Assembly (NCBI GenBank): GCA_027326105.1
Contig: DAHWFB010000007.1
Coordinates: 1-40,572, forward strand
Length of the DNA: 40,572 nucleotides
Source of the DNA: Acetobacteraceae bacterium
GTDB lineage: Bacteria; Pseudomonadota; Alphaproteobacteria; Acetobacterales; Acetobacteraceae
Reading direction: 5' to 3'
Shown: positions 3,690 to 39,680 of the stretch, piece after piece
Numbering within the stretch: position 1 is the stretch's first letter
Layout: each line of letters begins with the position of its first letter
Notes under the pieces: generated by a model
The model's input: the letters and a program-made list of their open reading frames with translations, nothing else
The model's database searches: none
What the model was told of the DNA's origin: nothing
Made by a program: the position numbers and the translations under genes

Positions 3690-5462
3690 TCAGGTCTCGA
3701 AAACGTAGGAGCCGGGCGCCGGCCCGAGCGTGGGCAGTCCGCTCGCGGGCGCGCCCATCGCCGGCGGCTTGGCGGGCGGGCCGGAGCGTTCGGCCAGCCA
3801 GCCCGCCCATTCCGGCCACCAGGACCCTTCCCGCACCTCGGCGCGATGCTGCCAGAGCATGGGCGCCTCGTAGGGGTCGCCATGGCGGCGGGTGTGGCGG
3901 CGGTAATGCCGGTGCGGGTGGCCCGGTTCGGAGACGATACCGGCGTTATGCCCTCCGGAGGTGAGCACGAACGTCAGGTCGTTGTCGTTGAGCAGGTGCA
4001 GCTTGAAGACCGAGCGCCAAGGGGCGACATGATCGGTCTCTGTGCCGACGACAAAGAACGGCCCCCGCATATCGCCCACGGCCACCGGCCGGCCGTCCAC
4101 CGGAAAGCGGCCCTCGGCGAGGTCGTTGCCAAGGAAGAGGCGGCGCAGATATTCGGCGTGCATGCGCCAAGGCATGCGGGTGGCGTCCGCGTTCCACGCC
4201 ATCAGATCGCTCGGGTGCTCGCGCTGGCCAAGAAGATAGCTCTTCACCGCGCGCGACCAGACGAGATCGTTCGAGCGCAGCAACTCGAAGGCGCCGGCCA
4301 TCTGGCGGCTGCCGAGATAGCCCTGCGCCCACATGACGTCATCGAGAAACGCGAGCTGGCTCTCGTTGATGAAGAGCTGCAACTCGCCCGCCTCCGAGAA
4401 ATCGGTCTGGGCGGCGAGCAGGGAGATGGTCGCGAGCCTGCCATCACCGTCGCGCGCCATGGCAGCGGCGGCGATGGCGAGCAGCGTCCCGCCGAGACAG
4501 TAGCCGCAGGCGTGGATGCGCGCAGCGCCGGTGATCCGCTCCACCGCATCGACCGCGGCCAGCACACCGAGGCGGCGATAGTCGTCGAGCGTGGTCTGCG
4601 CCATCTCCGACCCGGGGTTGCGCCAGGAGATGCAGAAGACGGTGAACCCCTGCGCGACCAGCCAGGCGATCAGCGAGTTCCGCGGCGAGAGGTCGAGAAT
4701 GTAGTATTTCATGATCCAGGCGGGCACGATCAGCACCGGCTCGGGCCGCACCGCGGCCGTCGCCGGGGCGTACTGGATCAGCTCCATCAACTCGTTGCGC
4801 AGGACGACCTTGCCCGGCGTGACGGCGAGATCACGCCCGACCCGGAAGCCGCCATCCGCGCCCCGCCCGGTCAACCCCTGGCGCAGATCGGTGGCGAGGT
4901 TGGCGAGCCCCTCGCGCAGATTGGCCCCGCCGCTCTCCACCGTGGCCTCGATCACCTCAGGGTTGAGCCACGGCACGTTGGAGGGCGAGAGCATGTCGAG
5001 CATCTGGCGGACGGTGAAGGCGACGATGCGTTCATGGCTGCGCGAGACGCCGGGCAGACCGGTCGTCGCCCAACCCCACCATTCCTGGCCGAGCAGGAAA
5101 GCCTGTTCGAACAGGGAAAACGGGCCCTGCTGCCAAGCCGGCGCCGAAAACCGATGATCCTCCGGCGGCGGCGCGATCGCCGGACCTTCGCTCTGCCCCG
5201 CCGCGGCGGCGAAGAACCGGTGCCACTGCTCGGCCGCGAGGCGGGCGAGATCGGCGCGCCGGTAGGGAGAATTGGCGAGGTGGATGCCCCAGTCGGTGAA
5301 GGAAAGCCACAGCGCGGCCAGGGAAAGCCCGGCGGTGAGCCTGCCCTGGGCCGCGTGCAGCCTGCGGTCGAGGTCCGAAAGGGTCCATGTCCCGCGCTCG
5401 ATACCCGGTGCCGCTAGGGGGGGGTGCGGCATTGAAATTCCGGGTCCGATATTGCCTTCCAT
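3690..5462 (-). CDS. phaC: class I polyhydroxyalkanoate synthase
   Basis: PhaC polymerises (R)-3-hydroxyacyl-CoA into polyester at the surface of storage granules. The product is about 590 residues, the usual class I length. The lipase-like box GYCLGG places the catalytic cysteine near residue 321. The partner aspartate is in TETDHVAPW (about 477) and the histidine in SGGHNAG (about 505), which is close to the spacing in the Ralstonia enzyme. An N-terminal PhaC domain with the conserved NPEVIEATVESGG region precedes the alpha/beta hydrolase. The most upstream ATG (5513) would overlap an FNR box, so the ATG at 5462, preceded by GAGG, is chosen; ATGs at 5480 and 5432 are alternatives. The divergent neighbour is an acyl-CoA synthetase. 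No phaA, phaB or phasin gene lies in the window. Confidence 0.93.
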   Translation of the reverse strand: MEGNIGPGISMPHPPLAAPGIERGTWTLSDLDRRLHAAQGRLTAGLSLAALWLSFTDWGIHLANSPYRRADLARLAAEQWHRFFAAAAGQSEGPAIAPPPEDHRFSAPAWQQGPFSLFEQAFLLGQEWWGWATTGLPGVSRSHERIVAFTVRQMLDMLSPSNVPWLNPEVIEATVESGGANLREGLANLATDLRQGLTGRGADGGFRVGRDLAVTPGKVVLRNELMELIQYAPATAAVRPEPVLIVPAWIMKYYILDLSPRNSLIAWLVAQGFTVFCISWRNPGSEMAQTTLDDYRRLGVLAAVDAVERITGAARIHACGYCLGGTLLAIAAAAMARDGDGRLATISLLAAQTDFSEAGELQLFINESQLAFLDDVMWAQGYLGSRQMAGAFELLRSNDLVWSRAVKSYLLGQREHPSDLMAWNADATRMPWRMHAEYLRRLFLGNDLAEGRFPVDGRPVAVGDMRGPFFVVGTETDHVAPWRSVFKLHLLNDNDLTFVLTSGGHNAGIVSEPGHPHRHYRRHTRRHGDPYEAPMLWQHRAEVREGSWWPEWAGWLAERSGPPAKPPAMGAPASGLPTLGPAPGSYVFET

Positions 5463-5512
5463 GGTCTGCCTCGTCCGCATCGCGTTTCTGCCCTGCGCGC
5501 CGCCGGGCAGCA

Positions 5513-5526
5513 TTGATTTGAATCAA
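5513..5526. promoter_or_regulatory. perfect FNR box TTGAT-TTGA-ATCAA
   Basis: This exact consensus FNR palindrome lies in the 157-bp region between phaC (minus strand) and the acyl-CoA synthetase gene (plus strand). Its centre is about 58 bp upstream of the chosen phaC start and 100 bp upstream of the synthetase start. It can serve phaC most directly. With the FNR gene only 2.5 kb away, control of PHA synthesis by oxygen is a reasonable inference. Confidence 0.85.
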
Positions 5527-5619: not shown

Positions 5620-7269
5620 ATGGACAACTCGCCGTTCGATCTTCATCTCGGTCGCACCCCGGCTAATTTCCAGCCCCTCACTCCCCTCCGCTTCCTCGCC
5701 CGCAGCGCCGCCGTCCACCCCGACCATGTCGCGGTGATCCACGGCCCGCTGCGCCGCAGCTATGCCGAACTTGACGCCCGCTGCCGACGGCTCGCCAGCG
5801 CCCTCGCCCGACGTGGCATCGGGCGCGGCCAGGCGGTCTCGGCGCTGCTGCCCAACACCCCGGAAATGATCGAAGCCCACCACGGCGTGCCGCTCGCGGG
5901 CGCAGTGCTGAACGCCATCAACACCAGGCTCGACGCCCGCGTCGTCGCCTTCATCCTCGACCATGCCGAATCCCGCGCCCTCCTGGTCGATCGCGAATTC
6001 GCCCCCCTCGCCCGCGCGGCACTCGCGCTCGCCCGCACCCGCCCGCTGGTGATCGAGGTGGACGATGCCGCGTTCACCGGCGACGGTGAACCACTCGGAG
6101 AACTCGGCTACGAGGCGTTCCTCGCCGAGGGCGAACCGACATTCGCCGGCGTCCCTCCCGCCGACGAGTGGGACGCGATCAGCCTCAACTACACCTCCGG
6201 CACCACCGGCGACCCCAAGGGCGTGGTCTACCACCATCGCGGCGCCGCGCTGCTCGCCATGGGCAACGCCTTCACCGCCTCCATGGTCAAGCACCCGGTC
6301 TATCTCTGGACGTTGCCGATGTTTCACTGCAACGGCTGGTGCTTTCCCTGGACAGTGCCGCTCATGGCCGGCACCCAGGTCTGCCTGCGCCAGGTCCGGG
6401 CCGGCGCGATCTACGCCGCGCTCGCCACCCATCGGGTGACCCATCTCTGCGGGGCGCCGATCGTGATGAGCGCGTTGCTCGGCGCACCGGCGGCCGAGAA
6501 GCGGTTGCTCGAACAGCCGGTGGAGTTCATGACCGCCGCCGCCCCGCCGCCCGAAACGGTGCTCGCCGCCATGGCCGCCGCGGGTTTCCGCGTCACCCAT
6601 CTCTATGGCCTGACCGAGACCTACGGTCCGGCGGTGGTGAACGACTGGCACGCCGAATGGGACGCTCTGCCGATGGCGGAGCAGGCGGCCCGTAAGGCCC
6701 GCCAGGGCGTGCGCTACGTCCCGCTCGACGATCTCGAAGTGATGGACCCCGCCACCATGCGCCCGGTGCCCCGCGACGGGAAATCGCTCGGCGAGGTGAT
6801 GTTCCGCGGCAACGTGGTGGCCAAGGGCTATTTCAGGAATCCCGAGGCGACCGCCAAGGCCTTCGCGGGCGGCTGGTTCCACTCCGGCGACCTCGCGGTG
6901 ATGCACCCGGACGGGTATCTGCAAATCAAGGACCGTGCCAAGGACATCATCATCTCGGGCGGCGAGAACATCTCCTCGATCGAGGTCGAGGACGCGCTCT
7001 ACGCCCACCCGGCGGTGCAGATGGCCGCGGTGGTCGCAGCACCCGATGAGAAATGGGGCGAGACCCCCTGTGCCTTCGTCGAACTGCGCGCGGGGGCGGC
7101 GGCGACAGAAGCGGAGCTGATCGCCTGGTGCCGGGCGCATCTCGCCCACTACAAATGCCCGAGCCGGATCCTGTTCACGGAGATCCCCAAGACCTCGACC
7201 GGCAAGATCCAGAAATTCGTGCTCCGCGCGCGGGCCAGGGAGCAGGCCGGTGGGACGGCGCCGGGGTAA
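5620..7269 (+). CDS. fatty-acyl-CoA synthetase (AMP-forming)
   Basis: This 549-residue member of the ANL superfamily activates a carboxylic acid, probably medium or long chain, to its CoA thioester through an acyl-adenylate. Adenylation motifs appear in order: YTSGTTGDPKGVV (P-loop), YGLTETYG, GWFHSGDLAV, the hinge and core DRAKDIIISGGEN, and the C-terminal catalytic lysine in TSTGKIQK. The start ATG at 5620 has CGAGGA seven bases upstream. It is divergent from phaC across an FNR box and convergent with the next gene, so it is a one-gene unit. It may supply acyl-CoA for PHA or beta-oxidation, or activate substrates for the acyl-CoA module at 10.5-13.8 kb. Chain-length preference cannot be read from the sequence. 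Confidence 0.9.
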   Translation: MDNSPFDLHLGRTPANFQPLTPLRFLARSAAVHPDHVAVIHGPLRRSYAELDARCRRLASALARRGIGRGQAVSALLPNTPEMIEAHHGVPLAGAVLNAINTRLDARVVAFILDHAESRALLVDREFAPLARAALALARTRPLVIEVDDAAFTGDGEPLGELGYEAFLAEGEPTFAGVPPADEWDAISLNYTSGTTGDPKGVVYHHRGAALLAMGNAFTASMVKHPVYLWTLPMFHCNGWCFPWTVPLMAGTQVCLRQVRAGAIYAALATHRVTHLCGAPIVMSALLGAPAAEKRLLEQPVEFMTAAAPPPETVLAAMAAAGFRVTHLYGLTETYGPAVVNDWHAEWDALPMAEQAARKARQGVRYVPLDDLEVMDPATMRPVPRDGKSLGEVMFRGNVVAKGYFRNPEATAKAFAGGWFHSGDLAVMHPDGYLQIKDRAKDIIISGGENISSIEVEDALYAHPAVQMAAVVAAPDEKWGETPCAFVELRAGAAATEAELIAWCRAHLAHYKCPSRILFTEIPKTSTGKIQKFVLRARAREQAGGTAPG

Positions 7270-7954: not shown

Positions 7955-10003
7955 TCAGGGGTTGGGCGCCCCCGGCGGCAGCTTCTTCGGGGGCGGCGGC
8001 GCCGGATGGGGAGCCGGCGGATGATAGGCAGGGACCGGTGGGTGGTAGACCGGAGCCGGCGGGTGATAGGCGGGTGCCGGCGGATGATAGACCGGAGCCG
8101 GCGGATGATAAGCGGGTGCCGGCGGGTGATAGACCGGAGCCGGCGGGTGATAAGCGGGAGCCGGCGGGTGATAGACCGGCGCGGGCTTGGGCGCGACCGG
8201 GGCCGGCGGATGATAGATCGGCGCGGGCTTGGGCGCGACCGGAACCGGCGGATGATAGGGCGCCGGCTTCGGCACCCCCGGCAGCGGCGCCGGCTTCACC
8301 AGCGGAACCGACTTGGGCGCGACCGGAACCGGCGGATGATAGATCGGCGCCAGCTTCGGCGCAGGCAGAACCGGGCGCAACGCCGGCCGCGGCGGCGGCG
8401 GGTGGGCAACGCCCGGCGCCCGGGGCGGGACAACCGGGCGCGCCACGATGCGCGGGCCGGGTGCCACTGGCCGCAGCGGCAGCGGCCGCCCGGCGGGAAC
8501 GATATGCAACTGCTGCGCCACATGCGGGGTCACCCCCAGTGTCGCGACGGTCGGGCGCAGCGGGGCTTGGCCGATTACCGGGCGCGCCGCGCCCAGAAGC
8601 TGCGCCCGGGGGAGGTGCTGCACCGCCGGCGCGATGGGCTGCGATGCGACCATCACCCGCGCCGGCACAACCGTCACCGCGCGGCGATTCACGAAGTTGT
8701 TGATGGTGACGTTTCTCTGCACGATCACCGTGCGGTTGATATTGACGATCCGGGTCACCTGCGGGGCGTTGAAGATATTGACTTGGCGCACATAGGCAGG
8801 TGTCACCCGATAGGGCGGGTAGTAGATCTCCCGCGGGCCGAGCGGCACCCAGCCGATCGCGCCGGCGGCGATCCCTCCGGCGGTGATGCCCACCGCGACG
8901 CCGCCGAGATTGATCCCGATATGGAAGAAGCTCACCAGCGCCGGAGCATAGACCGGGCGGGCATAGAGCGGCGGCGCATAGGCCGGGCCCGCGGCCACCA
9001 CCGGCACCCACGCCCAGCGCGGCCCGACCATCACCCACCGCCCGTAGTGGAAGGGCGCGAAGCCCCAAGGGGCGGCGTCGATCCAGGTCCAGCCCCAGGG
9101 TGCGACGTAGGCCCAATGCCCTTCACGATACGGAACCCAGCCGGGCGAGACCGGGGGATACCAGACCGCCCCATACTCCGGCGAACTGCTCCAGGTGCCG
9201 ATCACAGCGAGATCCGCCCCACCCGTCATCTGTGCGACGACCGGCGGCGGAGCCGCGCCGAACGGCCCGCCCGGCACGCCCTCGCCCGCCGCCGGCGCGG
9301 GTGGCAGGGGTGGGCGCTCGCGGGCAAGCTGGGCGGCGAAGAAAGGGTCGGGAATCAGAGTGGAGATGCTGCCGGTGAAGCTGTCCTGGCCGCTGATGGT
9401 CGCGGTCTGCCCGCCGCCGAGGGCGAGGTCTACCCCCGGCCCGGTCACCTGCGCTTGGCCGTCCAGCACCGAGACCAGTGTCGGATTCTGGGTGTCGCCG
9501 GCCGCGATCTCGTAGCGGCCCGAAGACAACAGTTGCACCGTGCCGCGCGGGGTGGTGATCACCATCGTCTGCCCCTGGGGCAGGTTGCGCAGATGGATGT
9601 ACGCCTCGCCCTGCGGCTGGATCGCCTGCAGCGTCGATTCGTCGAGCGCGGTGATGTCGAACTCGGTGCCGCCGTTCATGGCGATGCGGGCGTTGTCGAG
9701 CTCGATCGCCGCCTGTGAACCGGGCTGGGTCCAAAAGGCATTGCCCGCGGTGACCGGGTAGTTGAGGACCGCCGGCTGCCACTGGTCCTCGCTCTCGGTG
9801 TGGAAGGAAACCTGGCCGGCGACCTGCGCCAACCGCCCGACGCGGGCGGGCGGGTTGACGGGCGCCTGGGCGTCGGGTGAAACCGTGGCCGGCGCCTGCT
9901 GGGCCAACGCCGGAACCGGCAGCAGCGGTGCGGCGAGCAGCCCGAGCGCTGCCGCGGCGGCAGGGGCGAAAGTCCACAGCGGTCGTGAGCCATGCCGAGA
10001 CAT
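7955..10003 (-). CDS. secreted FecR/DUF6600-like protein with Pro-rich repeat tail
   Basis: This 682-residue exported protein has a signal peptide (residues 1-34, cleavage after PALA in front of QQ). A FecR-like beta-rich region follows (about 55-200): a Trp/Gln-rich segment, the strands AIELDNARIAMNGGTEFDI, and the TPRGTVQLLSSGRYEI strand pair. A tryptophan- and tyrosine-rich section (about 285-350) with WVPYREGHW, WGWTWID and HYGRW resembles the DUF6600 domain found in such proteins. The last 110 residues are low-complexity, built on YHPPAP repeats. It has no obvious transmembrane anchor after the signal, so it is probably periplasmic or surface-exposed. The start has GGAGA eight bases upstream. 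The molecular role is unknown; FecR proteins normally partner ECF sigma factors, but none is nearby. Confidence 0.8.
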   Translation of the reverse strand: MSRHGSRPLWTFAPAAAAALGLLAAPLLPVPALAQQAPATVSPDAQAPVNPPARVGRLAQVAGQVSFHTESEDQWQPAVLNYPVTAGNAFWTQPGSQAAIELDNARIAMNGGTEFDITALDESTLQAIQPQGEAYIHLRNLPQGQTMVITTPRGTVQLLSSGRYEIAAGDTQNPTLVSVLDGQAQVTGPGVDLALGGGQTATISGQDSFTGSISTLIPDPFFAAQLARERPPLPPAPAAGEGVPGGPFGAAPPPVVAQMTGGADLAVIGTWSSSPEYGAVWYPPVSPGWVPYREGHWAYVAPWGWTWIDAAPWGFAPFHYGRWVMVGPRWAWVPVVAAGPAYAPPLYARPVYAPALVSFFHIGINLGGVAVGITAGGIAAGAIGWVPLGPREIYYPPYRVTPAYVRQVNIFNAPQVTRIVNINRTVIVQRNVTINNFVNRRAVTVVPARVMVASQPIAPAVQHLPRAQLLGAARPVIGQAPLRPTVATLGVTPHVAQQLHIVPAGRPLPLRPVAPGPRIVARPVVPPRAPGVAHPPPPRPALRPVLPAPKLAPIYHPPVPVAPKSVPLVKPAPLPGVPKPAPYHPPVPVAPKPAPIYHPPAPVAPKPAPVYHPPAPAYHPPAPVYHPPAPAYHPPAPVYHPPAPAYHPPAPVYHPPVPAYHPPAPHPAPPPPKKLPPGAPNP
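8009..8351 (-). repeat. in-gene tandem repeat encoding YHPP(A/V)P units
   Basis: The 3' end of the FecR-like gene holds eleven copies of a YHPP-containing unit. The central copies are 7-residue (21-bp) units that alternate YHPPAPV and YHPPAPA. The outer copies are longer, spaced by VAPKPAP. The alternation suggests a 42-bp unit that expanded by slippage or unequal crossing-over. Reading frame is kept throughout. Confidence 0.85.
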
Positions 10004-10257
10004 GGGTTGGTCTCCTCGATCCCCGGCCGGCCGCTGAAGCGCGGACGGCCCGTTTCAACCACCGTTTAAGCGGCGGATTGCGGCGGAATTGGCACCCTTC
10101 CCATTGCGGAATGTCACGCCCCGTATCCAAGTGCAAGGCAGGACGGGGGCTCCATGGAATTGCCGCAAACCGCGCCCAACTGTCTCCGCAGCGCACGCCA
10201 CGGGGCGGAATGCGCGCCGGTTGGAAGGTCCGCGCAACGCGGCGAGGAGAGAACAGG

Positions 10258-10452
10258 ATGAATAGGATCGCGCGATTTGGCCGCCTCGGCCGGCGGCTGG
10301 TGTTGCCGCTGGCGCTGCTCGCAGCCGGTGTCGGGCTGTCGGGCTGCGCCGTCTACCCGGCCTACCCGGCCTATGCCGGACCGGCCTATTACGGCCCCTA
10401 CGCCTATCCCAACGTCGCGGTGCGCGGGGTCTTCGTCTGGCACGGCCGCTGA
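10258..10452 (+). CDS. small lipoprotein
   Basis: This 64-residue protein has a basic N-terminus (MNRIARFGRLGRR), a hydrophobic stretch, and the lipobox LSGC with the lipidated cysteine near residue 30. The mature part is only about 35 residues, rich in Tyr, Pro and Ala (YPAYPAYAGPAYYGPYAY), and ends in VWHGR. A strong ribosome-binding site, GAGGAGA, sits 7 bases before the ATG. It is divergent from the FecR-like protein, and both are Tyr/Pro-rich envelope proteins, so a shared envelope role is possible. Similar tiny lipoproteins of unknown function occur in many alphaproteobacteria. Confidence 0.75.
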   Translation: MNRIARFGRLGRRLVLPLALLAAGVGLSGCAVYPAYPAYAGPAYYGPYAYPNVAVRGVFVWHGR

Positions 10453-10459
10453 GCGGCCG
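10443..10459. terminator. hairpin shared by two convergent genes
   Basis: CGGCCGC and GCGGCCG form a perfect 7-bp stem with a TGA loop, and that TGA is the stop codon of the lipoprotein gene. It lies between convergent genes ending at 10452 and 10462 and could act on both strands. There is no T tract, so intrinsic termination is only a possibility. Confidence 0.4.
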
Positions 10460-10461
10460 AC

Positions 10462-10854
10462 CTACCCGGGCCTGGTGAGATAGCGCGGGTTGGCGAGCGC
10501 CAGCCGCGCGGCCAACTGGTGGTCGAACAGCCGCCCGAGCGGGGCGTCTGCCGCGGGGCCGAAGCGGCGGGCGCGCAAATCCGCGGCCAGCCTGCGCTCG
10601 AGATCGGCAAGCGGCTGCTCGGGGCGCGGCGGCGGGCCGGCGGCGGGATCGGCGGCATAGACCGCGCCGATCAAGGCGCGCAGTTCGCCCACCGCGGCGC
10701 CATCGTCGGCCAGCTCCCGCGCGGCGATCGCCATCGCGTTGGCGATCATCCGCGCGAGATAGTGATGCTCGGGCGCGAGCGCGGGCACGACGGTGGCGAG
10801 CAGTTCGGCGCGCGCGATCGCGAGCAGCACCCTCCCGTCCGCCCCGTCACGCAT
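10462..10854 (-). CDS. DUF6285 protein, LvaB-like partner of the kinase
   Basis: This 130-residue soluble, helical protein begins RVLLAIARAELLATVVPAL and contains HHYLARMIANAMAIAARE, features of DUF6285 proteins that are encoded beside APH-type kinases and acyl-CoA dehydrogenases. It is the last gene of a four-gene operon; its ATG overlaps the 3' end of the kinase gene by 8 bp, indicating translational coupling. By analogy with LvaB of the Pseudomonas putida levulinate pathway, it is probably an accessory subunit required for kinase activity. The analogy rests on gene order and size; the sequence relationship should be tested. Confidence 0.7.
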   Translation of the reverse strand: MRDGADGRVLLAIARAELLATVVPALAPEHHYLARMIANAMAIAARELADDGAAVGELRALIGAVYAADPAAGPPPRPEQPLADLERRLAADLRARRFGPAADAPLGRLFDHQLAARLALANPRYLTRPG

Positions 10855-11866
10855 CCGCCGTCTCCAGCGCGCGGACCAGGCCGAGCGCTTGGTGGGCGAT
10901 CTGCGGCGCCATTCGCCCGGTCAGCGCGGCTTCCAGCACCGGTGACCTCTCGCTCCGGTGGCGCTCGCCCTGCAGCAGCGCGATGATCGCCCAGCGCACG
11001 GTGGCGAATGCCTCCCAGAAGCCGACCCGCTCGGCCGGAACCGGCGCGCCGGCGACCTCTGCGTAGCCGGCATAGAAGGCAGCACGCGCGCCGATCCCGC
11101 CCGCCTCCCGCTCGGGGGCCAGGAACCGCCAGCAGGGCGCGCAGAACCAGCCGACATCCTCAAGCGGGTCACCCCAGGCGGCGAATTCCCAATCGAGCAC
11201 GGCGGCGATCCACCCGCCCTCGGCGATCATCAGATTGCCGGTGCGATAGTCGCCGTGCAGCAGCACGGCGGGCAGCGGCGGCGGCGCCAGCGCGGCCAGG
11301 CGGACCAGCATCCATTCCAGCACCGGCTGCGGCGCGGGCAAGGCGTCGAGCAGGGCGGCGAGATGGGCAAGCCGTGCCGCGACCGGCGGCTCGCCCGACG
11401 GCGGCAGGAAGCCGAGACCGGCCCGCGGCGGGGGGATGGAGTGGATGCGGGCGAGTTCGCGCCCGAGATCTCTGGCCAGCGCGTCGGCGTCGGCGATCGG
11501 CGCATCGGAGCCGGTCAGCCGGCGCGGGTCGGTGATGCCCTGGACCCGGCGGGCAAGACTGAAGGGCCCACCGAGCACCGCGGGGTCCGTGCAGAGCCCG
11601 AGCGGTTCGGCAACCCTCACACCGGCGGCGAAGGCGGCCTCGATCACCCGGTATTCGCCCGCCCGGTCGAGGCTGGCGGGCAGCCGCGCGGCGGCGTCGC
11701 GGCGCAGCACCAGGGCGAGCCGCGTGCCGCCGGGCAATTCGAGACCGAGCCCCCAGTTCTCCTGGATCGCCCCGCCGCCGAGCGGGGCGAGGGCGGCGAT
11801 GCGCACGCCGACGCCGAAACGCCCCCCGAGCCAGGCGGCGAGCCGGGCGCGTTCCGCCCCCGTCAT
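10847..11866 (-). CDS. APH-family phosphotransferase, LvaA/ACAD10-11-type
   Basis: This 339-residue kinase has the aminoglycoside-phosphotransferase fold. The ATP-binding N-lobe includes PLGGGAIQENW. The catalytic loop is LLHGDYRTGNL (aspartate near residue 205) and the metal-binding motif is VLDWEFAAWGDPLEDVGW. In the bacterial and eukaryotic ACAD10/11-type systems this kinase domain phosphorylates the 4-hydroxyl of a 4-hydroxyacyl-CoA, which the adjacent dehydrogenase-like enzyme then removes. The gene is sandwiched between such a dehydrogenase (4-bp ATGA overlap) and a DUF6285 protein, which supports that role over antibiotic resistance. The exact acyl substrate is unknown. Confidence 0.85.
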   Translation of the reverse strand: MTGAERARLAAWLGGRFGVGVRIAALAPLGGGAIQENWGLGLELPGGTRLALVLRRDAAARLPASLDRAGEYRVIEAAFAAGVRVAEPLGLCTDPAVLGGPFSLARRVQGITDPRRLTGSDAPIADADALARDLGRELARIHSIPPPRAGLGFLPPSGEPPVAARLAHLAALLDALPAPQPVLEWMLVRLAALAPPPLPAVLLHGDYRTGNLMIAEGGWIAAVLDWEFAAWGDPLEDVGWFCAPCWRFLAPEREAGGIGARAAFYAGYAEVAGAPVPAERVGFWEAFATVRWAIIALLQGERHRSERSPVLEAALTGRMAPQIAHQALGLVRALETADA

Positions 11867-13062
11867 CCGCCCCAGCGCCAGAAACCGTCGCCCTCTTTGA
11901 GGCAGCCGCGGGCGAGCACCATGCGGTGGACTTCAGAGGCGCCGTCCACCAGCCGCGCCTGGCGGGCGTAGCGGTAGATCCATTCGAGCCGGGTGTCTTT
12001 GGAATAACCCCGCGCACCGCAGAGCTGGATCGCGGTATCGACGGCGCGGGAGAGCGTGTCGGCAACCGCGATCTTGGCCATCGAAACCGCCGCTCGCGCG
12101 TCGGCCCCCTGGTCCAGCAGCCAGGCCGCCTTCATCACCAGAAGCCGCCCGACCTCGATCGCCATCGCCACCTCGCCAAGCATCCATTGCACCCCTTCGT
12201 GACCCGCGAGCGTGGCGCCGAAACTCTGTCGTTCGCGCAGGTAGGGGGCGGCGATCTCGAGCGCGCGGCGGGCAAGGCCGAGCCAGCGCATGCAATGGGT
12301 GAGGCGGGCGGGGTTGAGGCGGATCTGGGTCACGCGCAACCCGTCCCCCACCTCCATCAGCCGGTTTTCGTCGGGAATGGCCAAGCCGTCGAATTCGAGT
12401 TCGCAATGGCCGCCGTGCTCTTCCGGCCCCATGATCGGAATACGGCGGAGGATGCGCCAGCCGGGATCGTCACGATGGAAGAGAAAGGCGGTGAGGCCGC
12501 GGCGGGTGTCGGCGGAAGTGCGGGCAACCAGGATGAAGTGGGCCGCGATGGCGGCGCCGGTGATGAACCATTTGCGCCCGCGCACGATCCAAAACTCCCC
12601 CTCGCGCGCCGCCGTGGTCAGCATCGCGGCGGGGTCGGAGCCGGCGCCGGGGGCAGGCTCGGTCATCGCGAAGGCGGAGCGCACCTCGCCGGCGGCGATC
12701 GGGGCGAGCCAGCGGGCGCGCTGCGCCTCGGTCGCGACGCGGGAGAGCAGCATCATGTTGCCGTCGTCGGGAGCGGCCGCATTGAACACCACCGGGCCGA
12801 ACAGCGAGCGGTTCATCTCCTCGTACGCCGCCGCCATGGCGACAAAGCCGGCGCCCATGCCGCCGTCGCGCGGCGGCAACTGGAGATTCCACAGGCCGGC
12901 GGCGCGGGCCGCGCCGCGCAGCGCCTCCAGTCGATCGAGCCGGATGTTCTCATGGTCGTCGAAACTGTCGGGATCGGCCTCGACGGGCATGATCCGCTCC
13001 GCGACGAAGCCCTGGATGCGCCGGCGCAACGCCTCGGCCTCCGGTGAAAGGGCAAATTCCAT
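11863..13062 (-). CDS. acyl-CoA dehydrogenase family protein, LvaC/ACAD11-like
   Basis: This 399-residue FAD enzyme has the full acyl-CoA dehydrogenase fold: an N-terminal helical domain, the FAD-binding segment FAMTEPAPGAGSDP, the strand motif KWFITGA, and a C-terminal helical domain ending in the LDQGADARAAVSMAK and CGARGYSKDTRLEWIYRYAR segments. The C-terminal half resembles the ACAD10/11 group rather than short-chain dehydrogenases. In the lva pathway the equivalent protein turns 4-phosphoacyl-CoA into an enoyl-CoA. A longer frame exists upstream, but the ATG at 13062 overlaps the stop codon of the SDR gene (TGATG), and the family begins with MEFALSPEAEAL. It is the second gene of the operon. 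Confidence 0.88.
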   Translation of the reverse strand: MEFALSPEAEALRRRIQGFVAERIMPVEADPDSFDDHENIRLDRLEALRGAARAAGLWNLQLPPRDGGMGAGFVAMAAAYEEMNRSLFGPVVFNAAAPDDGNMMLLSRVATEAQRARWLAPIAAGEVRSAFAMTEPAPGAGSDPAAMLTTAAREGEFWIVRGRKWFITGAAIAAHFILVARTSADTRRGLTAFLFHRDDPGWRILRRIPIMGPEEHGGHCELEFDGLAIPDENRLMEVGDGLRVTQIRLNPARLTHCMRWLGLARRALEIAAPYLRERQSFGATLAGHEGVQWMLGEVAMAIEVGRLLVMKAAWLLDQGADARAAVSMAKIAVADTLSRAVDTAIQLCGARGYSKDTRLEWIYRYARQARLVDGASEVHRMVLARGCLKEGDGFWRWGG

Positions 13063-13832
13063 CAGAGGCCGCTCACCAGATGCCCGCCGTCCACCGCGAG
13101 CACCGCGCCGGTGATGTAGCCGGCCTCGGGCGAGAGCAGCAGGCGCAAGGCCGCGTCGAGATCCTCGGGGCGGCCGAGGCGGCGGGCGGGAATACGGCGG
13201 ATCATGGCCTGGCCCTCCGGGCTCGCGAAGAAGGCGCGGTTGAGTGGGGTTTCGATGTAGCCGGGGGCGAGCGCGTTGACGCGGATCCCGTGCCGCGCCC
13301 ACTCCAGCGCCATCTCCCTGGTCAACTGGATCAGCCCGGCCTTGGCGGTGGCGTAGGCGCCGACCCCTCCCGCCTGGCGCAGCCCGAGGATGGAGGCGAT
13401 GTTGACGATCGCGCCACCTCCCGCCCGCGCCATGCCCTTCGCCACCGCGCGAGCGACCAGGAAGGCTCCGCGCAGGTTGGTGGCGAGGACGCGGTCCCAG
13501 GCGGCGATATCCTGATCGAGGAGCGGCGCGCTTTCGTTGATCCCGGCATTGTTGACCAGCCCCCCGAGCGGCCCGAAGGATGCGGCAGCGGCGGCGACGG
13601 TTGCATCCACCGCCGCCGCGTCGGTCACGTCGAGGGCGAAGGTCGCGGCACGTCCGCCGGCGGCGGCGATCTCGGCGGCCAGCGTGGCGAGTTCCGGCGC
13701 CCGCCGCGCGGCGGCGAGGATGGGGTGGCCGGCCGCTGCCAGCATGCGGGCGAAGTGCCGGCCGAGGCCGGAGGAAGCGCCGGTGACCAGGATCGGCGGG
13801 CGCGCACGGCCCGGGCTGGGAGGGTCGGCCAT
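13062..13832 (-). CDS. short-chain dehydrogenase/reductase, LvaD-like
   Basis: This 256-residue SDR has the cofactor motif TGASSGLGRH, the NNAG motif (LVNNAGINES), a catalytic serine in NIASILG, the YATAK Tyr/Lys pair, and a C-terminal VDGGH segment. It is the first gene of the SDR, acyl-CoA dehydrogenase, kinase, DUF6285 operon. In the levulinate pathway the equivalent enzyme reduces a 4-ketoacyl-CoA to a 4-hydroxyacyl-CoA, so that role is inferred. The ATG at 13832 is chosen because the cofactor motif follows at the usual distance. A TATAGT -10 element ends six bases before it and there is no ribosome-binding site, so the transcript is probably leaderless. Upstream start codons at 13970 lie inside the promoter region. 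Confidence 0.82.
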   Translation of the reverse strand: MADPPSPGRARPPILVTGASSGLGRHFARMLAAAGHPILAAARRAPELATLAAEIAAAGGRAATFALDVTDAAAVDATVAAAAASFGPLGGLVNNAGINESAPLLDQDIAAWDRVLATNLRGAFLVARAVAKGMARAGGGAIVNIASILGLRQAGGVGAYATAKAGLIQLTREMALEWARHGIRVNALAPGYIETPLNRAFFASPEGQAMIRRIPARRLGRPEDLDAALRLLLSPEAGYITGAVLAVDGGHLVSGL

Positions 13833-13838
13833 AGCGGG

Positions 13839-13866
13839 ACTATAGGCGGGCTGGCCGGCCCGGCAA
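13839..13866 (-). promoter_or_regulatory. promoter of the SDR operon, leaderless
   Basis: On the minus strand, TTGCCG (13861-13866) is followed by a 16-bp spacer and TATAGT (13839-13844). Predicted transcription start falls on or next to the A of the SDR start codon at 13832. The -35 element is also one arm of a 7-bp inverted repeat (GGCAAGG at 13862-13868, CCTTGCC at 13902-13908), a possible regulator site shared with the divergent transporter. Confidence 0.55.
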
Positions 13867-13984
13867 GGACGCGGCGGGAATGCACTCGGGCAGAGCGTTT
13901 CCCTTGCCAAGCGGGGCGAAACTCCACCACAGTGCCGCCCAGGCTCCGACAGGATCGGTTCGGCAACCACACAGGGGATACGCC

Positions 13985-15229
13985 ATGAGAATATCGCGCC
14001 GTTCGGCCAACCAGATCATCCTCGCTTCCGCCGCGGCGATGGCGGGCGGCCTGCGCATCGAAGCGGCGGCAGCCGCCGGCAAGGTGATCGAGATTGGCAT
14101 CGCCCTTCCGCTCACCGGCGCGGACGCCGATTCCGCCCACCGCATCCTCAACGGCGCCCTGCTCGCCATCAAGCAGGCCAACGATTCCGGCGAGGTGAAG
14201 GGCTACACCCTCAAGCCGTTGATCCTCGACAATGCGACGCCGACCGCCGGCCAGTACGACCCCGCCCAGGCGGCGACGAACGCGCGCAAGATGGTCTCCA
14301 ACCCCGCCGTGATGGCGGCGGTGGGACCGGAAATGAGCGGCTCGGGCAAGGCGATGGCACCGATCCTCTCGGAAGGCGATCTCGCCACCATCACCCCCTC
14401 CTCGACCAGCCCGGATCTGACCAACCCGCAGTTCGCCGCCCAGTTCCGCCCCGCCGGCAAGGCGATCTATTTCCGCACCGTGACGACCGATGCGTTCCAG
14501 GGCCCCAACATGGCCAATTTCTACGCCGAGACCCTGAAGGCGAAGTCGGTCTATGTGCTCGACGACAGCGGCGCCTACGGCGTCGGCCTCGCCAATGCGT
14601 TCATCGGGCAAGCCAAGAAGAAGGGGATCCATGTCCTCGGGCACGACCGGCTGGACCCCAAAGCGGCAGACTACACCACAGCTCTGACCAAGATCAAAGC
14701 TCTCAACGCGGACTCGATCTATTACGGCGGCGTGATGCAGGCCGGGGCGAAGCTCGCCAAGCAGGCGTATGACATCGTGCCCAAGATGATCAAGGGCGGC
14801 GGAGACGGGATCTACGCCCCCGAGATGCTTACCGCGGTGGGATTTCCCGCCGCCGAAGGGTGGTATGCCACCATCGCCTCCCCCCACGTGACCGACAATC
14901 CCAAGGTGCAGGCCTGGGTCAAGCTCTACGCCGCGACCTACCACACCCAGCCGGATGACTACGCCATCACCGCCTACGACGCGGGCCTCGTCATCGTCGA
15001 TGCGCTGAGGCGCATCGTCGCCGCCGGCAAGCCCATCACCCGCGCTCTGGTGCGCGACTATATCCAAAGCTCGAAGACGCCGACACTGCAGGGTGTGGTC
15101 TCGTTCGACGCCAACGGCGACATCACCAACCGCGTCGTCAGCGTATTCCAGGTGGTCAAGAACCCGAAGTACCCGCTGAATGACATGCTGAAGCAGTTCA
15201 AGTATGTCGGCGTAGCCCCGCAGACCTGA
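13985..15229 (+). CDS. ABC transporter substrate-binding protein, Leu/Ile/Val type
   Basis: This 414-residue periplasmic solute-binding protein belongs to the type I branched-chain amino-acid/amide family. The N-terminus has paired arginines (ISRRSANQ) followed by a short hydrophobic segment ending in AAAAAGK, so it is exported by Sec or possibly Tat. The mature protein opens with IEIGIALPLTG, the usual start of the first lobe, and contains GPEMSGSGKAMAPI and ITPSSTSPDLT, typical ligand-pocket loops. The ATG at 13985 has GGGGAT eight bases upstream; a longer frame begins at 13880. It heads a transporter operon and faces the SDR-ACAD-kinase operon. Substrate may be an organic acid rather than an amino acid; this cannot be read from sequence. 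Confidence 0.88.
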   Translation: MRISRRSANQIILASAAAMAGGLRIEAAAAAGKVIEIGIALPLTGADADSAHRILNGALLAIKQANDSGEVKGYTLKPLILDNATPTAGQYDPAQAATNARKMVSNPAVMAAVGPEMSGSGKAMAPILSEGDLATITPSSTSPDLTNPQFAAQFRPAGKAIYFRTVTTDAFQGPNMANFYAETLKAKSVYVLDDSGAYGVGLANAFIGQAKKKGIHVLGHDRLDPKAADYTTALTKIKALNADSIYYGGVMQAGAKLAKQAYDIVPKMIKGGGDGIYAPEMLTAVGFPAAEGWYATIASPHVTDNPKVQAWVKLYAATYHTQPDDYAITAYDAGLVIVDALRRIVAAGKPITRALVRDYIQSSKTPTLQGVVSFDANGDITNRVVSVFQVVKNPKYPLNDMLKQFKYVGVAPQT

Positions 15230-15248
15230 TCCGGCAGAGTCCGCGGCG

Positions 15249-16178
15249 ATGACGCCGTCCGCCCTGTTCCTGCAGCAGGTGATCAACGGGCTGAGTCTGG
15301 GGGCGATGTATTCGCTGCTCGCGCTGGGGTTCACGCTCGTTTACGGCATCCTCGAACTCATCAACTTCTCGCACTTCAATGTATTCATGGTGGGCTCGTT
15401 CATCGCCATGTGGGTGCTGCAGTTCTTCGGGCTGTCCGGCCAGCAGGTGATCCTCACCGGCTGGCCGCTGCTCGGCGTGCTCGGGGCGGCGCTGCTGATC
15501 ACCATGCTGGCGACCGGCCTCCTCGGCGTCGGCATCGAGCGCTTCTCGCTGCGCCCGCTACGCAACGTGCCGGGGCCGGTGGCGATGATCACCACCATCG
15601 GCATCTCCTACATCCTCTTCAACGTCATTCTGCTGACGGTGGGTGCGGAGACCAAGAATTTTCCTAACCCGCTTCCGATGGTGAAATGGCACGTCGGCGG
15701 GGCGGTGGTGGAGTTGCGTGAGGTGCTGATCTGGGCGATCTCGCTCGTGCTCATGTTGCTCTTGCAGTTCTTCGTGCAGCGTTCGCGCCTGGGCAAGGCG
15801 ATGCGGGCGACCGCGCAGGACCCGGAGGCGGCGCGAATGATGGGGGTGGAGGTCGACCGGGTGGTGATCACCGCCTTCTTCCTGGGCTCGGCACTCGCCG
15901 GGGCGGGTGGGATGTTCTTCGGCCTATACTACAATTTCACCAGCTTCCTCATCGGCTACACGGCGGGCCTGCGCGCCTTCACCGCCGCTGTCCTGGGCGG
16001 CATCGGCAGCGTGCCGGGTGCTATGGTGGGCGGGGTAATGATCGGGCTGATCGAATCGCTCTCCGGGCAATATATCGCGGTCCGCTGGAGCGACGTGATC
16101 ATCTTCTCCATCCTGGTGCTGATCCTGGTGTTCCGCCCGGCCGGCCTGTTCGGCCGGCTCGCGCCAACCAAGTCCTGA
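15249..16178 (+). CDS. livH: branched-chain-type ABC transporter permease LivH
   Basis: This 309-residue inner-membrane permease has about eight transmembrane segments. LivH landmarks are the opening segment LFLQQVINGLSLGAMYSLLALGF (first helix), the GIERFSLRPLRN loop, the cytoplasmic EAARMMGVEVDRV coupling helix that contacts the ATPases, and the AFTAAVLGGIGSVPGAMVGG segment. It starts 19 bp after the binding-protein gene and is followed 3 bp later by the LivM-LivG fusion gene, so all are co-transcribed. The translocated compound is unknown. Confidence 0.92.
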   Translation: MTPSALFLQQVINGLSLGAMYSLLALGFTLVYGILELINFSHFNVFMVGSFIAMWVLQFFGLSGQQVILTGWPLLGVLGAALLITMLATGLLGVGIERFSLRPLRNVPGPVAMITTIGISYILFNVILLTVGAETKNFPNPLPMVKWHVGGAVVELREVLIWAISLVLMLLLQFFVQRSRLGKAMRATAQDPEAARMMGVEVDRVVITAFFLGSALAGAGGMFFGLYYNFTSFLIGYTAGLRAFTAAVLGGIGSVPGAMVGGVMIGLIESLSGQYIAVRWSDVIIFSILVLILVFRPAGLFGRLAPTKS

Positions 16179-16181
16179 GCC

Positions 16182-18191
16182 ATGGACACACTCGCCGAGC
16201 CACGCCAGACCGATACCCCGCCGCCCGGCTCCAGCTCGCGCCGGCGCGCTGCGGAAGCGGCGGGAACGGTCGCGGTGTTCGCCTTCGCCATGCTCTTTCC
16301 GGTGCTGATCCAGAACCAGGCGGACATCGATTCCGCTGCCAACGCCCTGTCCTACGCGCTGCTCGCGCTGGGGCTGAACATCGTGGTGGGGTTCGCGGGC
16401 CTGCTCGATCTCGGCTACGCGGCCTTCTTCGCGATCGGCGCCTATGCCTACGGCATCCTCTCCTCCTGGCAATTGACCCCGCCATGGAGCGCCTCCTGGC
16501 AACCGCTCGCCAGCCTCGGCCTGGTCGCCCGCGTGATGCAGGGCAACGCGGCCGTGGTGCATTTCACCTTCTCCTTCTGGCTGATGCTGCCGCTCTCGGG
16601 GCTCATCGCCGCGGGGTTCGGGGTGCTCTTCGGCGCACCCACCCTGCGGCTGAAGGGTGACTATCTCGCCATCGTCACGCTCGGCTTCGGCGAGATCGTG
16701 CCGATCGTGGTGCGCAACTGGAGCTCGCTCACCAATGGTGCCGCTGGCCTTAACGGCGTCGCCGCGCCGATGCTGTTCGGGCACAGTTTCGGCATCGACG
16801 CGACCCCCTATTACTACGTCGGTGTCGGGCTCACCGTATTGCTCATCTTCGTCAGCATCCGGCTACGGGATTCGCGCATCGGCCGGGCCTGGATGGCGAT
16901 CCGCGAGGACGAGGTGGCGGCCCACGCCATGGGGATCGACCGCACCCGCACCAAGCTGCTCGCCTTCGCGGTCGGCGCCGGATTCGCCGGCATGACCGGC
17001 ACGTACTACGTCGCCAAGCTGCAGACCGCGACACCGGACATGTTCAACTTCAACGTCTCGGTAATGATCCTGGTCATGGTGGTGCTCGGCGGACTGGGCA
17101 GCGTCTGGGGCGTGGTGGTCGGGGCCATGCTGCTGCAACTGCTGCAATCGTGGTTCCTGCCGGATCTGACCGGCTGGATCCATGCGCTCGGCCGCGCGGT
17201 GGGGAGCGCCGGCCTGCAGAGCGTGCAACTCGCGCAGGCGAGCGAACTGATCTTCGGTATCATCCTGGTCACCATGATGCTCTACCGCCGGGACGGGCTG
17301 ATCCCGGCCCGACGGCGCACGCCCGCGCTCAGCCTCGCCCAGCAGCACGCCGAGGTGAGGCGCGGCGGCATCACCGGGCTCGGTGCCCTTGGCGCGGCGG
17401 CTGCGGTGCCGGGTGGACCACTACTGGAAATCCACGGTATCACCAAGCGCTTCGGCGGCCTCGTCGCGCTGAAGTCGGTCGATCTCGCGCTGACCGAGGG
17501 CGACATTCTCGCCGTCATCGGCCCCAACGGCTCGGGCAAATCGACGCTGTTCAACGTCATCACCGGGCTCAGCAAGCCGGACGACGGCGGCATCGTTTTC
17601 GCTGGCCGCGACATCACCGGCCTCGCCGCCCATCTCGTCACCCGCGCGGGAGTCGCGCGCACCTTCCAGAACATCCGGCTCTTCCCCGAACTCACCGTGC
17701 TGGAGAACGTTCTGGTCGGCGAGCATTGCCGGCTGCGCACCGGGCCCTTGCGCGCGGTCCTGCGCACGCCGGGCACGCGGCGCGAGGAGCGGGAAGCGCG
17801 GGAGTGGGCGGCTGAGGTGCTCGGCATCTTCGGCAACCGGCTGCTGCCGCGCCTGTCTCAGCCGGTGCGTGAACTTTCCTACGCCAACCGCCGCCGGGTC
17901 GAGATCGCCCGCGCGATCGCCTCGCGGCCAAGGCTGCTCCTGCTCGACGAACCGACGGCGGGCATGAACCCGGCCGAGACGCTGGAACTCGCCGAGCAGA
18001 TCGGCAGCCTCAACCGGCTCGGCCTCTCCATCCTGCTCATCGAGCACAAGCTCGACGTGGTGACGCAGCTCGCCGGCAAGGTGGTGGTGCTCGACCATGG
18101 CGAGAAGATCGCCGAGGGTAGCCCGCGGGAGGTGCGCCAGAACGAGCAGGTACTGCGTGCCTATCTCGGCAGGAGCACCCAAGTTGCTTGA
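16182..18191 (+). CDS. fused LivM permease and LivG ATPase
   Basis: This 669-residue single polypeptide combines two subunits that are usually separate. Residues 1 to about 370 form a LivM-type permease with an N-terminal tail, the helix LSYALLALGLNIVVGFAGLL, the coupling helix DEVAAHAMGIDRTRTK and the GGLGSVWGVVVGAML segment. A linker of about 40 residues rich in Arg, Ala and Gly follows. From about 412 there is a LivG ATPase: Walker A IGPNGSGKST (about 446), a Q-loop in ARTFQNIRLF, signature LSYANRRRVEIARA (about 565) in place of the usual LSGGQ, and Walker B LLLLDEPTAG. The reading frame is continuous, so a sequencing frameshift is not needed to explain it. It overlaps livF by 8 bp. Permease-ATPase fusion of this kind is known in some alphaproteobacteria and fixes subunit stoichiometry. 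Confidence 0.88.
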   Translation: MDTLAEPRQTDTPPPGSSSRRRAAEAAGTVAVFAFAMLFPVLIQNQADIDSAANALSYALLALGLNIVVGFAGLLDLGYAAFFAIGAYAYGILSSWQLTPPWSASWQPLASLGLVARVMQGNAAVVHFTFSFWLMLPLSGLIAAGFGVLFGAPTLRLKGDYLAIVTLGFGEIVPIVVRNWSSLTNGAAGLNGVAAPMLFGHSFGIDATPYYYVGVGLTVLLIFVSIRLRDSRIGRAWMAIREDEVAAHAMGIDRTRTKLLAFAVGAGFAGMTGTYYVAKLQTATPDMFNFNVSVMILVMVVLGGLGSVWGVVVGAMLLQLLQSWFLPDLTGWIHALGRAVGSAGLQSVQLAQASELIFGIILVTMMLYRRDGLIPARRRTPALSLAQQHAEVRRGGITGLGALGAAAAVPGGPLLEIHGITKRFGGLVALKSVDLALTEGDILAVIGPNGSGKSTLFNVITGLSKPDDGGIVFAGRDITGLAAHLVTRAGVARTFQNIRLFPELTVLENVLVGEHCRLRTGPLRAVLRTPGTRREEREAREWAAEVLGIFGNRLLPRLSQPVRELSYANRRRVEIARAIASRPRLLLLDEPTAGMNPAETLELAEQIGSLNRLGLSILLIEHKLDVVTQLAGKVVVLDHGEKIAEGSPREVRQNEQVLRAYLGRSTQVA

Positions 18192-18900
18192 GTTCCGCGA
18201 CATCGACACGCACTACGGCGATCTCCACGTGCTCAAGAAGGTGAACTACACCATCGGCAAAGGGGAGATCGTCTGCCTGCTTGGCGGGAACGCCAGTGGC
18301 AAATCGACCACCATGAAAACCATCATGGGCGTCGTGCGGCCGACCGCAGGCTCGGTGGTCTTCGAGGGTGAGGCGATCGAGCGGTTGCCGACGGCGGAGC
18401 GGGTGCGCCGCGGAATCGCCCCGGTGCTCGAAGCGAGGCGGCTCTTTCCGCGCATGACCGTCTATGAAAACCTCGAGATGGGCGCCTACACCCGCACCCT
18501 CGGACCCGGCTTTCAGGAGGATCTCGAACGCGCCTACCAGCTGTTCCCGCGGGTGAAGGAACGGCGCAACCAGATCGCCGGCACGCTTTCGGGCGGTGAG
18601 CAGCAGATGGTGGCGATCGCCCGCGCGCTGATGGCGCGGCCGCGCCTGATCTGCATGGACGAACCGTCGATGGGCCTGAGCCCGCGCTTCGTCGAGCAGG
18701 TATTCGACATCATCCAGATGATCAACCGCCAGGGCACTGCGATCTTCGTGGTCGAGCAGAACGCCAACATGGCGCTCTCCATCGCGCACCGGGCCTATGT
18801 GCTGCAGACCGGCCAGGTGGTGCTTTCCGGCAGTGCCGAGGAGCTGCGCCACAACCCGCAAATCCGCGAAGCCTACCTCGGCGAATTGTTGATCACGTAG
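18184..18900 (+). CDS. livF: branched-chain-type ABC transporter ATPase LivF
   Basis: This 238-residue ATPase carries Walker A GGNASGKSTT, signature LSGGEQQMVAIARAL, Walker B LICMDEPSMG and the switch histidine in the VVEQNANMA region. The frame stays open upstream to 18097, but the family begins MLEFRDIDTHYG, so the start is a TTG at 18184 with AGGAG 7 bases upstream. It overlaps the end of the LivM-LivG fusion gene by 8 bp, so translation is coupled. It is the last gene of the transporter operon, followed by a hairpin. Confidence 0.9.
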   Translation: MLEFRDIDTHYGDLHVLKKVNYTIGKGEIVCLLGGNASGKSTTMKTIMGVVRPTAGSVVFEGEAIERLPTAERVRRGIAPVLEARRLFPRMTVYENLEMGAYTRTLGPGFQEDLERAYQLFPRVKERRNQIAGTLSGGEQQMVAIARALMARPRLICMDEPSMGLSPRFVEQVFDIIQMINRQGTAIFVVEQNANMALSIAHRAYVLQTGQVVLSGSAEELRHNPQIREAYLGELLIT

Positions 18901-21015: not shown

Positions 21016-21597
21016 TTGACGCGCACCGGTCGCCCCGCTCCGCCGCCCGACGAGGCCAGCCTGCACGAGGCGGCGCTGGCCCATCTCGCCCGCTACGGCG
21101 GTAGCGAGGCCGGCTTGCGTAGAGTACTGGAGCGACGCATCGCACGTTGGGCGCGCAGCGCAGCAATCGCCGACCCCGAACGGCTGGCGCAGGCGGTTGG
21201 CGCGGCGCGGCAGGCGGCGTCCGCCGTGGTGGCGCGTCTCGCCGCGAGCGGCGCGGTCAACGACGCCGAATTCGCCACCGTACGCGCCCGCCGCCTCGCC
21301 CGTTCCGGGCGCTCGCGCCGTGCCATCCTCGCCCATCTCGGCGAGCGCGGTGTGGCAGGGGAAGTCGCCCGCGCCTCGCTGCCGGACGCCGAGGAATCCG
21401 AACTTGCCGCGGCCGTGGCGACCAGCCGCCGGCGGCGCATCGGCCCATTCCGCACCGGGGAGGTTGACCAGGAGACCCGGCGGCGCGACCTCGCGGCGCT
21501 GGCCCGTGCCGGCTTCTCCCAGGAAATCGCCCGTCGCGCGATCGCGATGCCGGTCGAGGCGGCGGAATCGCTGCTCATTCGTCTGCGGAACGGCTGA
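21016..21597 (+). CDS. recX: regulatory protein RecX
   Basis: This 193-residue, helix-rich, basic protein modulates RecA filaments. RecX-type three-helix repeats are visible: LHEAALAHLARYGGSEAGLRRVL, then AVVARLAASGAVNDAEFA, and SRRAILAHLGERGVAGEVA. The start is a TTG at 21016 with a GAGAGGG sequence just upstream; no better ATG lies nearby. It follows chpT by 9 bp, so it may share the chpT promoter. The 3' end overlaps the convergent etfB gene by 23 bp. RecA is not encoded nearby. Confidence 0.75.
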   Translation: MTRTGRPAPPPDEASLHEAALAHLARYGGSEAGLRRVLERRIARWARSAAIADPERLAQAVGAARQAASAVVARLAASGAVNDAEFATVRARRLARSGRSRRAILAHLGERGVAGEVARASLPDAEESELAAAVATSRRRRIGPFRTGEVDQETRRRDLAALARAGFSQEIARRAIAMPVEAAESLLIRLRNG

Positions 21598-22333
21598 AGC
21601 CAAGCGCGCGCAGCCAGGCAAGCAGTTCCCGTGCCGCCTCCTCGGGCGGCGGATCGACTAGCACCCGCCCGCCCCCCGCGACCTCGGTCGCCGCCCGCAA
21701 CCGTTCCGCGGCACTGCCCCCTCCGGCCACGCCGATGACCCGTGGGCGCGGACGATACGGTCGCTCCTCCGCAACGCGCGGCACCAGCGGGGCCGAACGT
21801 CCCTCCTGCTCCTCGATCCTGCCGCGCCGGGCACGGGCATAGGCGAAGGGAAGTGCCGGCGGTGCGGCCGGATGCACCGTCACCACCGCGGGGGGCGCTA
21901 CCACCAGCCGCCACCGCGCTCCCCGCGCACGCGCCTGGATCACGGCAAGACCCTCGGCTGCCGCCGCGAGCGCCACCGCGTTCGCCGCGATCGGCCAGCC
22001 CAGCGCCTCGGCGAGCAAATAGGGCAGCAGCCCAGAGTCCTCCCCACCCCGGCCACGGTTGCCGGCGAGCACCAGGTCGGGCGGATCAGCAGCGAGCGCG
22101 GCGGCAAGTGCCGCTACCGCATCGTCCGCCTCACCGATGCGCAGCACTGTTACCCGGTCCATTCCCTGCCCGAGCGCCTCGCGCACGGCAAGGTCCGGCG
22201 CGCCCGCGTGCAGCCCCGCGACGTCCGCTCCGAGCCCGCGCGCGAGAGCAATCGCCTGCATCTCCACCGGCACCGGCGCGGGCCGCGCCGACAGCGGATG
22301 CCGCCCGGCGGAAAGCAGCACCACCGCCCTCAT
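21575..22333 (-). CDS. etfB: electron transfer flavoprotein beta subunit, betaine-pathway type
   Basis: This 252-residue, divergent EtfB is probably the partner of the adjacent EtfA in carrying electrons from the dimethylglycine demethylase complex to the quinone pool. The adenine-nucleotide alpha-hydrolase-like fold is visible in the strands MRAVVLLSAG and PPDLVLAGNRGRGGEDSGLL. The latter matches the EtfB region DLVLTGRQAIDGDTGQ, which binds AMP. A long basic, Pro-rich C-terminal part (residues 165-215) is unusual for housekeeping EtfB. It overlaps etfA by 4 bp (ATGA) and is the last gene of the operon. Confidence 0.75.
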   Translation of the reverse strand: MRAVVLLSAGRHPLSARPAPVPVEMQAIALARGLGADVAGLHAGAPDLAVREALGQGMDRVTVLRIGEADDAVAALAAALAADPPDLVLAGNRGRGGEDSGLLPYLLAEALGWPIAANAVALAAAAEGLAVIQARARGARWRLVVAPPAVVTVHPAAPPALPFAYARARRGRIEEQEGRSAPLVPRVAEERPYRPRPRVIGVAGGGSAAERLRAATEVAGGGRVLVDPPPEEAARELLAWLRALGFSRSADE

Positions 22334-25379: not shown

Positions 25380-25385
25380 CAAGTC

Positions 25386-27422: not shown

Positions 27423-27469
27423 GAACGGGCTCCCCCCCGGGATTCGCGCAACGCAAGATACAATATATT

Positions 27470-28474: not shown

Positions 28475-28484
28475 GCCGGCATTC

Positions 28485-30829: not shown

Positions 30830-30852
30830 GAAGCCATCCCCCCTGGAAAATC

Positions 30853-30932
30853 CGACGCCTGAGTTTCGCCGATCGGACATCGAAGGACTATTCTCTGTCC
30901 GACGCAATTTATCAAAAATCCGTCAGGCGTCG
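30853..30932. promoter_or_regulatory. nested inverted repeats around the gbcA promoter
   Basis: The outer perfect 10-bp inverted repeat is CGACGCCTGA (30853-30862) and TCAGGCGTCG (30923-30932). Inside it is TCGGACA (30873-30879) and TGTCCGA (30896-30902), a 7-bp perfect repeat that spans the -10 element. A direct repeat TCCGACGC occurs at 30851-30858 and 30898-30905. They look like regulator half sites arranged about the promoter, with the outer right arm upstream of the -35. Which of the nearby GlxA/AraC or DeoR proteins binds is unknown. Confidence 0.65.
30887..30915 (-). promoter_or_regulatory. sigma70-like promoter of the gbcA operon
   Basis: On the minus strand, TTGATA (30910-30915) and AATAGT (30887-30892) are separated by exactly 17 bp. 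Transcription would begin near 30880, about 50 bp upstream of the gbcA start. The -35 has five matches and the -10 four matches to consensus. It is flanked and overlapped by inverted repeats, so it is probably regulated. Confidence 0.65.
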
Positions 30933-30937
30933 CCGAC

Positions 30938-37327: not shown

Positions 37328-37353
37328 GGCGGCATCCTCGCTGGCTTGGTCAA

Positions 37354-39654: not shown

Positions 39655-39680
39655 CGCTATCGTCCCCGCACGCCGATTGG

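Follow-up and report, generated by a model that had tools for sequence, protein, structure and literature searches.

The window, the complete contig of 40.6 kb analysed here, belongs to a draft genome of 2.55 Mb that is 82% complete. Four genes on its minus strand run head to tail from position 13832 to 10462, with overlaps of 1, 4 and 8 bp at the successive junctions. The first gene (13062..13832, ATG start; Pfam SDR, 2.4e-59) encodes an LvaD-like short-chain dehydrogenase (SDR), a proposed 4-oxoacyl-CoA reductase, for which an upstream GTG at 13970 is a possible alternative start. It is followed by genes for an LvaC/ACAD11-like acyl-CoA dehydrogenase homologue (ACAD; 11863..13062; three Pfam ACAD domains, 6e-41, 2e-20 and 1e-15), an LvaA-like APH-fold kinase (10847..11866; Pfam APH, 4.1e-36), proposed as the catalytic subunit of a 4-hydroxyacyl-CoA kinase, and an LvaB-like DUF6285 protein (10462..10854; PF19802, 1.7e-13, above the cut-off), proposed as the non-catalytic subunit of the kinase. 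The open reading frames, the overlaps of 1–8 bp and the single four-gene operon described in the initial annotation are thus confirmed in the sequence. Scans for sigma-70 promoters and terminators across the region returned matches at chance level only.

Divergently from the SDR gene, and 152 bp from it, starts a Liv-type importer on the plus strand. It consists of a substrate-binding protein (13985..15229; Peripla_BP_6, PF13458, 4.8e-44), a LivH-like permease (15249..16178; PF02653, 1.5e-46), a fused LivM permease–LivG ATPase in a single frame of 669 amino acids (16182..18191; PF02653 and PF00005), and a LivF-like ATPase (about 18157..18900; PF00005, 1.6e-31; LivF model 1.7e-76, below the cut-off of that model). 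The binding protein, two permease domains and two ATPase domains make up a complete Liv/HAAT set. Further genes of interest are an LvaE-like acyl-CoA synthetase (5620..7269, plus strand) and a class I PHA synthase (3690..5513, minus strand; PhaC_N, 4.5e-54; PHA_synth_I, 1.6e-157, below its cut-off). Elsewhere in the window, the minus strand carries a run of genes (21575–39705) resembling a cluster for the catabolism of glycine betaine, dimethylglycine and sarcosine: two ETF-like genes, a DUF3483/CCG gene, an FMN oxidoreductase, a Rieske oxygenase and its reductase, an AraC/DJ-1 regulator, a sarcosine-oxidase-alpha-like protein of 1061 amino acids, a DAO and a DeoR gene.

As a reference for the known pathway that channels levulinate and further 4-oxo/4-hydroxy acids towards fatty-acid degradation in some bacteria, we used the lva genes on plasmid p12939-PER of Pseudomonas aeruginosa, whose order is PrpR-type regulator, kinase, annotated lvaB, ACAD, SDR, acyl-CoA synthetase, DUF485 protein and symporter; the five enzyme genes of Pseudomonas peradeniyensis are 71–92% identical to these references. 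Identities of the window proteins amount to 56.9% for the SDR (LvaD), 54.6% for the synthetase (LvaE) and 45.6% for the ACAD (LvaC). The initial annotation had assigned the gene content lvaD, lvaC, lvaA and lvaB to the operon, and homology is upheld for each protein (38–57% identity). This includes the two whose unrelatedness would have spoken against the assignment, namely the kinase (44.0% to LvaA, over 334 residues) and the DUF6285 protein (38.5% to LvaB). Its observation that the gene order differs from Pseudomonas lva also holds, the order here being SDR–ACAD–kinase–DUF6285. With LvaD as query against the window's own genome, the window SDR ranks first (57%), followed by an SDR at 39%; its sequence contains TGASSGLG, NNAG and the Ser-Tyr-Lys pattern. 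The kinase carries the motifs GGAIQENW and HGDYRTGN, and its best PDB matches are 3dxp, 9o56 and mouse ACAD11. Homologues of lvaABCD in Alphaproteobacteria have already been noted by Rand et al., as quoted in PMC6692424.

ACAD10, ACAD11 and LvaC have in common a catalytic Asp and a cluster of R626, H634 and R637, the latter two within an HCMR motif; the cluster has been modelled to bind the 4-phosphate, and changes in it stop the ACAD step while the phospho-intermediate accumulates (PMC12440821). Two segments of the window ACAD, RLNPARLTHCMR and RLVDGASEVH, align residue for residue with R626, R631, HCMR, R637 and D753 of mouse ACAD11: the catalytic residue is Asp, not Glu, and both Arg as well as HCMR are kept. 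PDB entry 8v3v has Asn at the aligned catalytic Asp, which fits the ACAD-dead mutant of PMC12440821. The signature residues are kept in every orthologue of 62–70% identity that was read across the motif, and the R-R-H-R pattern occurs in 79 of 80 loci fetched by contig search, with search patterns into which the Asp, but not HCMR, was partly built. One might still take the protein for an ordinary beta-oxidation dehydrogenase beside an unrelated kinase, since Pfam and NCBIfam return general ACAD domains only. Such a reading is scarcely credible: Asp replaces the catalytic Glu, the HCMR motif is present, 4hr3 and ACAD11 rank before all ordinary ACADs among the solved structures, and the ACAD and kinase genes overlap translationally. 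We therefore reject an ordinary beta-oxidation ACAD on its active-site residues. The prospect that the operon serves ordinary fatty acids alone is likewise not borne out, as the ACAD has an active site of the 4-phosphoacyl-CoA kind and not that of ordinary fatty-acid enzymes.

In the phylogenetic tree, the window ACAD falls into a mostly alphaproteobacterial group (support 100/99). The LvaC clade (98/93), to which Thermus belongs, and the ACAD11 clade (100/100) are separate from this group; the window ACAD is hence not a member of the LvaC clade. Because the identity to LvaC is only 46% and the clade is separate, the substrate of the window ACAD could differ from that of LvaC. Identity to human ACAD11 is 36% for the window ACAD and likewise 36%, over 359 residues, for the plasmid LvaC (L109, 9001–10173), unlike the 56–62% given for LvaC of KT2440 versus ACAD11/ACAD10 in PMC11342911.

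The gene set is more than a chance neighbourhood, as ACAD orthologues of 62–70% identity are found in 78 of 250 genomes of the same family, and 14 of the 20 same-family loci compared have an LvaA-type kinase, each time together with DUF6285 (14/14). The LvaC-like type of ACAD (about 45%) is found in 6 of the 250 genomes. An LvaD-like SDR directly adjoins the ACAD in nine of the 20 loci. The order SDR–ACAD–APH–DUF6285 recurs in Azospirillum sp. B510 (pAB510b), Paroceanicella profunda and Thermus thermophilus HB8 (pTT27), and clustering is also conserved in Marinobacter. In six of the 20 loci (L048, L049, L050, L055, L056 and L061), no kinase is recognisable up to about 10 kb away, or up to the contig end where that is nearer. 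In these six genomes the sole APH matches are distant (31–34% identical) and located elsewhere, and the class-A ACAD signature is intact. We also note a histidine-phosphatase gene in or beside several operons (L104, 11620–14960; L108, 8243–9004; L112, 9475–10128; Azospirillum, Stutzerimonas and Thermus); in Azospirillum B510 it is apparently split by an IS21 element.

The DUF6285 protein is tied by co-occurrence to one type of kinase only. Among 80 named loci it adjoins six of seven LvaA-type kinases and none of 43 kinases of the other APH type (Fisher p 4e-7). Here, each kinase was typed by its best match among ten reference kinases, a sorting by similarity rather than by phylogeny, and related loci do not count as independent observations. 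LvaB reportedly binds LvaA and is indispensable when cells grow on levulinate (PMC6692424), and the co-occurrence fits a candidate two-subunit kinase, which makes the role of LvaB testable. The predicted structure of the DUF6285 protein is all-helical (pLDDT 92). It has no convincing relatives in the PDB by sequence, and a fold search of the PDB, which returned none with E up to 0.001, gives no hint of its mechanism. NCBIfam has no match for the protein; since the reference LvaB is likewise unmatched, this result is uninformative. No literature was found under the name DUF6285.

The synthetase at 5620 is located outside the operon, and the most similar paralogue encoded by the same genome shares only 33% identity with it. 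The initial annotation had suggested that it could supply the entry step, and this role is supported because nine of 20 relatives carry an orthologue (54–60%) within the operon or immediately next to it (L045, L048, L052, L054, L055, L056, L058, L060 and L063). The same does not apply to the PHA synthase, suggested as a polymer sink: the gene is real, but a PHA synthase was never found beside the operon in the 20 relative loci, and we rejected it as a component of the system.

From the observed homology, residues, gene order and conservation we infer the reactions, their sequence and the chain length of the substrate. Very probably, the operon and the synthetase at 5620 together specify a route of the Lva type by which 4-oxo and 4-hydroxy acids are degraded; short-chain acids such as levulinate and 4-hydroxyvalerate are the likeliest substrates. 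In this route, the synthetase would convert the acid into its acyl-CoA, and the SDR would turn the 4-oxo group into a hydroxyl by reduction. This 4-hydroxyl would be phosphorylated by the LvaA-like kinase, with DUF6285/LvaB as an obligatory small subunit. Elimination of the phosphate, held meanwhile by the Arg/His/Arg cluster, would then fall to the ACAD homologue, which would use its catalytic Asp and FAD without bringing about a net oxidation. The predicted product is a 2-enoyl-CoA that would be passed to beta-oxidation.

The same chemistry might also act on longer 4-hydroxy or 4-oxo acids, or on products of gamma-lactones, as the natural substrates in place of C5 levulinate. The pocket of ACAD11 is described as accommodating much longer chains (PMC12440821), and the window ACAD forms a clade of its own. 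Against this stand the LvaE-like synthetase (55%), LvaE being reported in PMC6692424 to prefer C4–C6 acids, and the apparent lack of a second ACAD for further cycles: a search of the 82%-complete assembly found no other protein with an ACAD middle domain, the control search being positive in 9 of 14 known genomes. With the genes seen, long acyl chains would not be fully oxidisable, and if the missing 18% of the genome is also devoid of ACADs, complete degradation would be restricted to substrates that need no further dehydrogenation, e.g. C5. The absence of other ACADs from a draft of this completeness is no proof. Taken together, the lone ACAD and the LvaE-like synthetase would favour short-chain acids, and we regard longer natural substrates as a possible but rather doubtful alternative to the short-chain route.

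A further question is whether the Liv-type importer belongs to the system and takes up the 4-oxo or 4-hydroxy acid. The initial annotation had it replace the permease of the Pseudomonas pathway. The adjacency is real, and a query with LvaG returned no match in the assembly, in a search that had no positive control, but linkage to the ACAD is absent in relatives. Orthologues of the binding protein are found in 74 of 250 genomes of the family; importer and class-A ACAD co-occur in 26 genomes versus 22.6 expected (p 0.19), and among same-family genomes they are never on one contig. Orthologues of the importer match the fused LivM–LivG frame over its whole length, and in 14 inspected loci the importer forms a unit of its own with differing genes around it. 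In favour of membership, in addition to the divergent arrangement 152 bp apart, is one relative (G023; L127, 10863–11636 with 9527–10762), in which the orthologous importer likewise diverges from an LvaD-like SDR that is the closest homologue of the window SDR (62%). Both genes are present in about 20 genomes, for which chance adjacency is expected an estimated 0.01–0.02 times or so. Other transporters also adjoin related operons: TRAP in L106, TTT in L113 and Liv in L107. The genome of G023 has no class-A ACAD, and kinase and DUF6285 are absent beside its SDR. Because G023 shows the same divergence, the importer–SDR arrangement may be older than one genome; no tie to the pathway follows. As the tests of co-occurrence and position are mostly negative, we rejected the importer as a conserved partner. 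It is probably an independent neighbour; its membership in the system is unlikely, and on balance we doubt that it replaces the permease. Still less probable is the combined proposal of a Liv-type importer dedicated to 4-oxo/4-hydroxy acids and a third, alphaproteobacterial clade of phosphate-eliminating ACADs whose substrate is unlike that of LvaC.

The reading of the locus as a somewhat divergent relative of the known Lva and ACAD10/11 catabolism of 4-hydroxy acids is well supported by the protein comparisons. The phosphorylation route for 4-hydroxy acids, present in bacteria as in mammals, would thereby be extended to a separate clade of ACADs that is widespread. The clusters of Azospirillum sp. 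B510 and Paroceanicella profunda are similar, with ACADs 70% identical to that of the window; those of Azospirillum and Thermus add the histidine-phosphatase gene, and the remaining neighbours of all three clusters, Thermus included, are unlike those of the window. Homologues of LvaA–LvaE are common to the window and the Pseudomonas lva operon (lvaABCDE with lvaFG; levulinate catabolism, Rand et al. 2017, as described in PMC6692424). The window differs from this operon in that the synthetase is 3.2 kb off on the opposite strand and the ACAD is of another clade; the LvaR regulator, LvaF and LvaG are not among the identified window genes. With mammalian ACAD10 and ACAD11, which are kinase–ACAD fusions acting on 4-hydroxy acids, the locus has in common the kinase fold and the signature residues of the ACAD, whereas kinase and ACAD are separate proteins here and the DUF6285 subunit and the SDR are additional.
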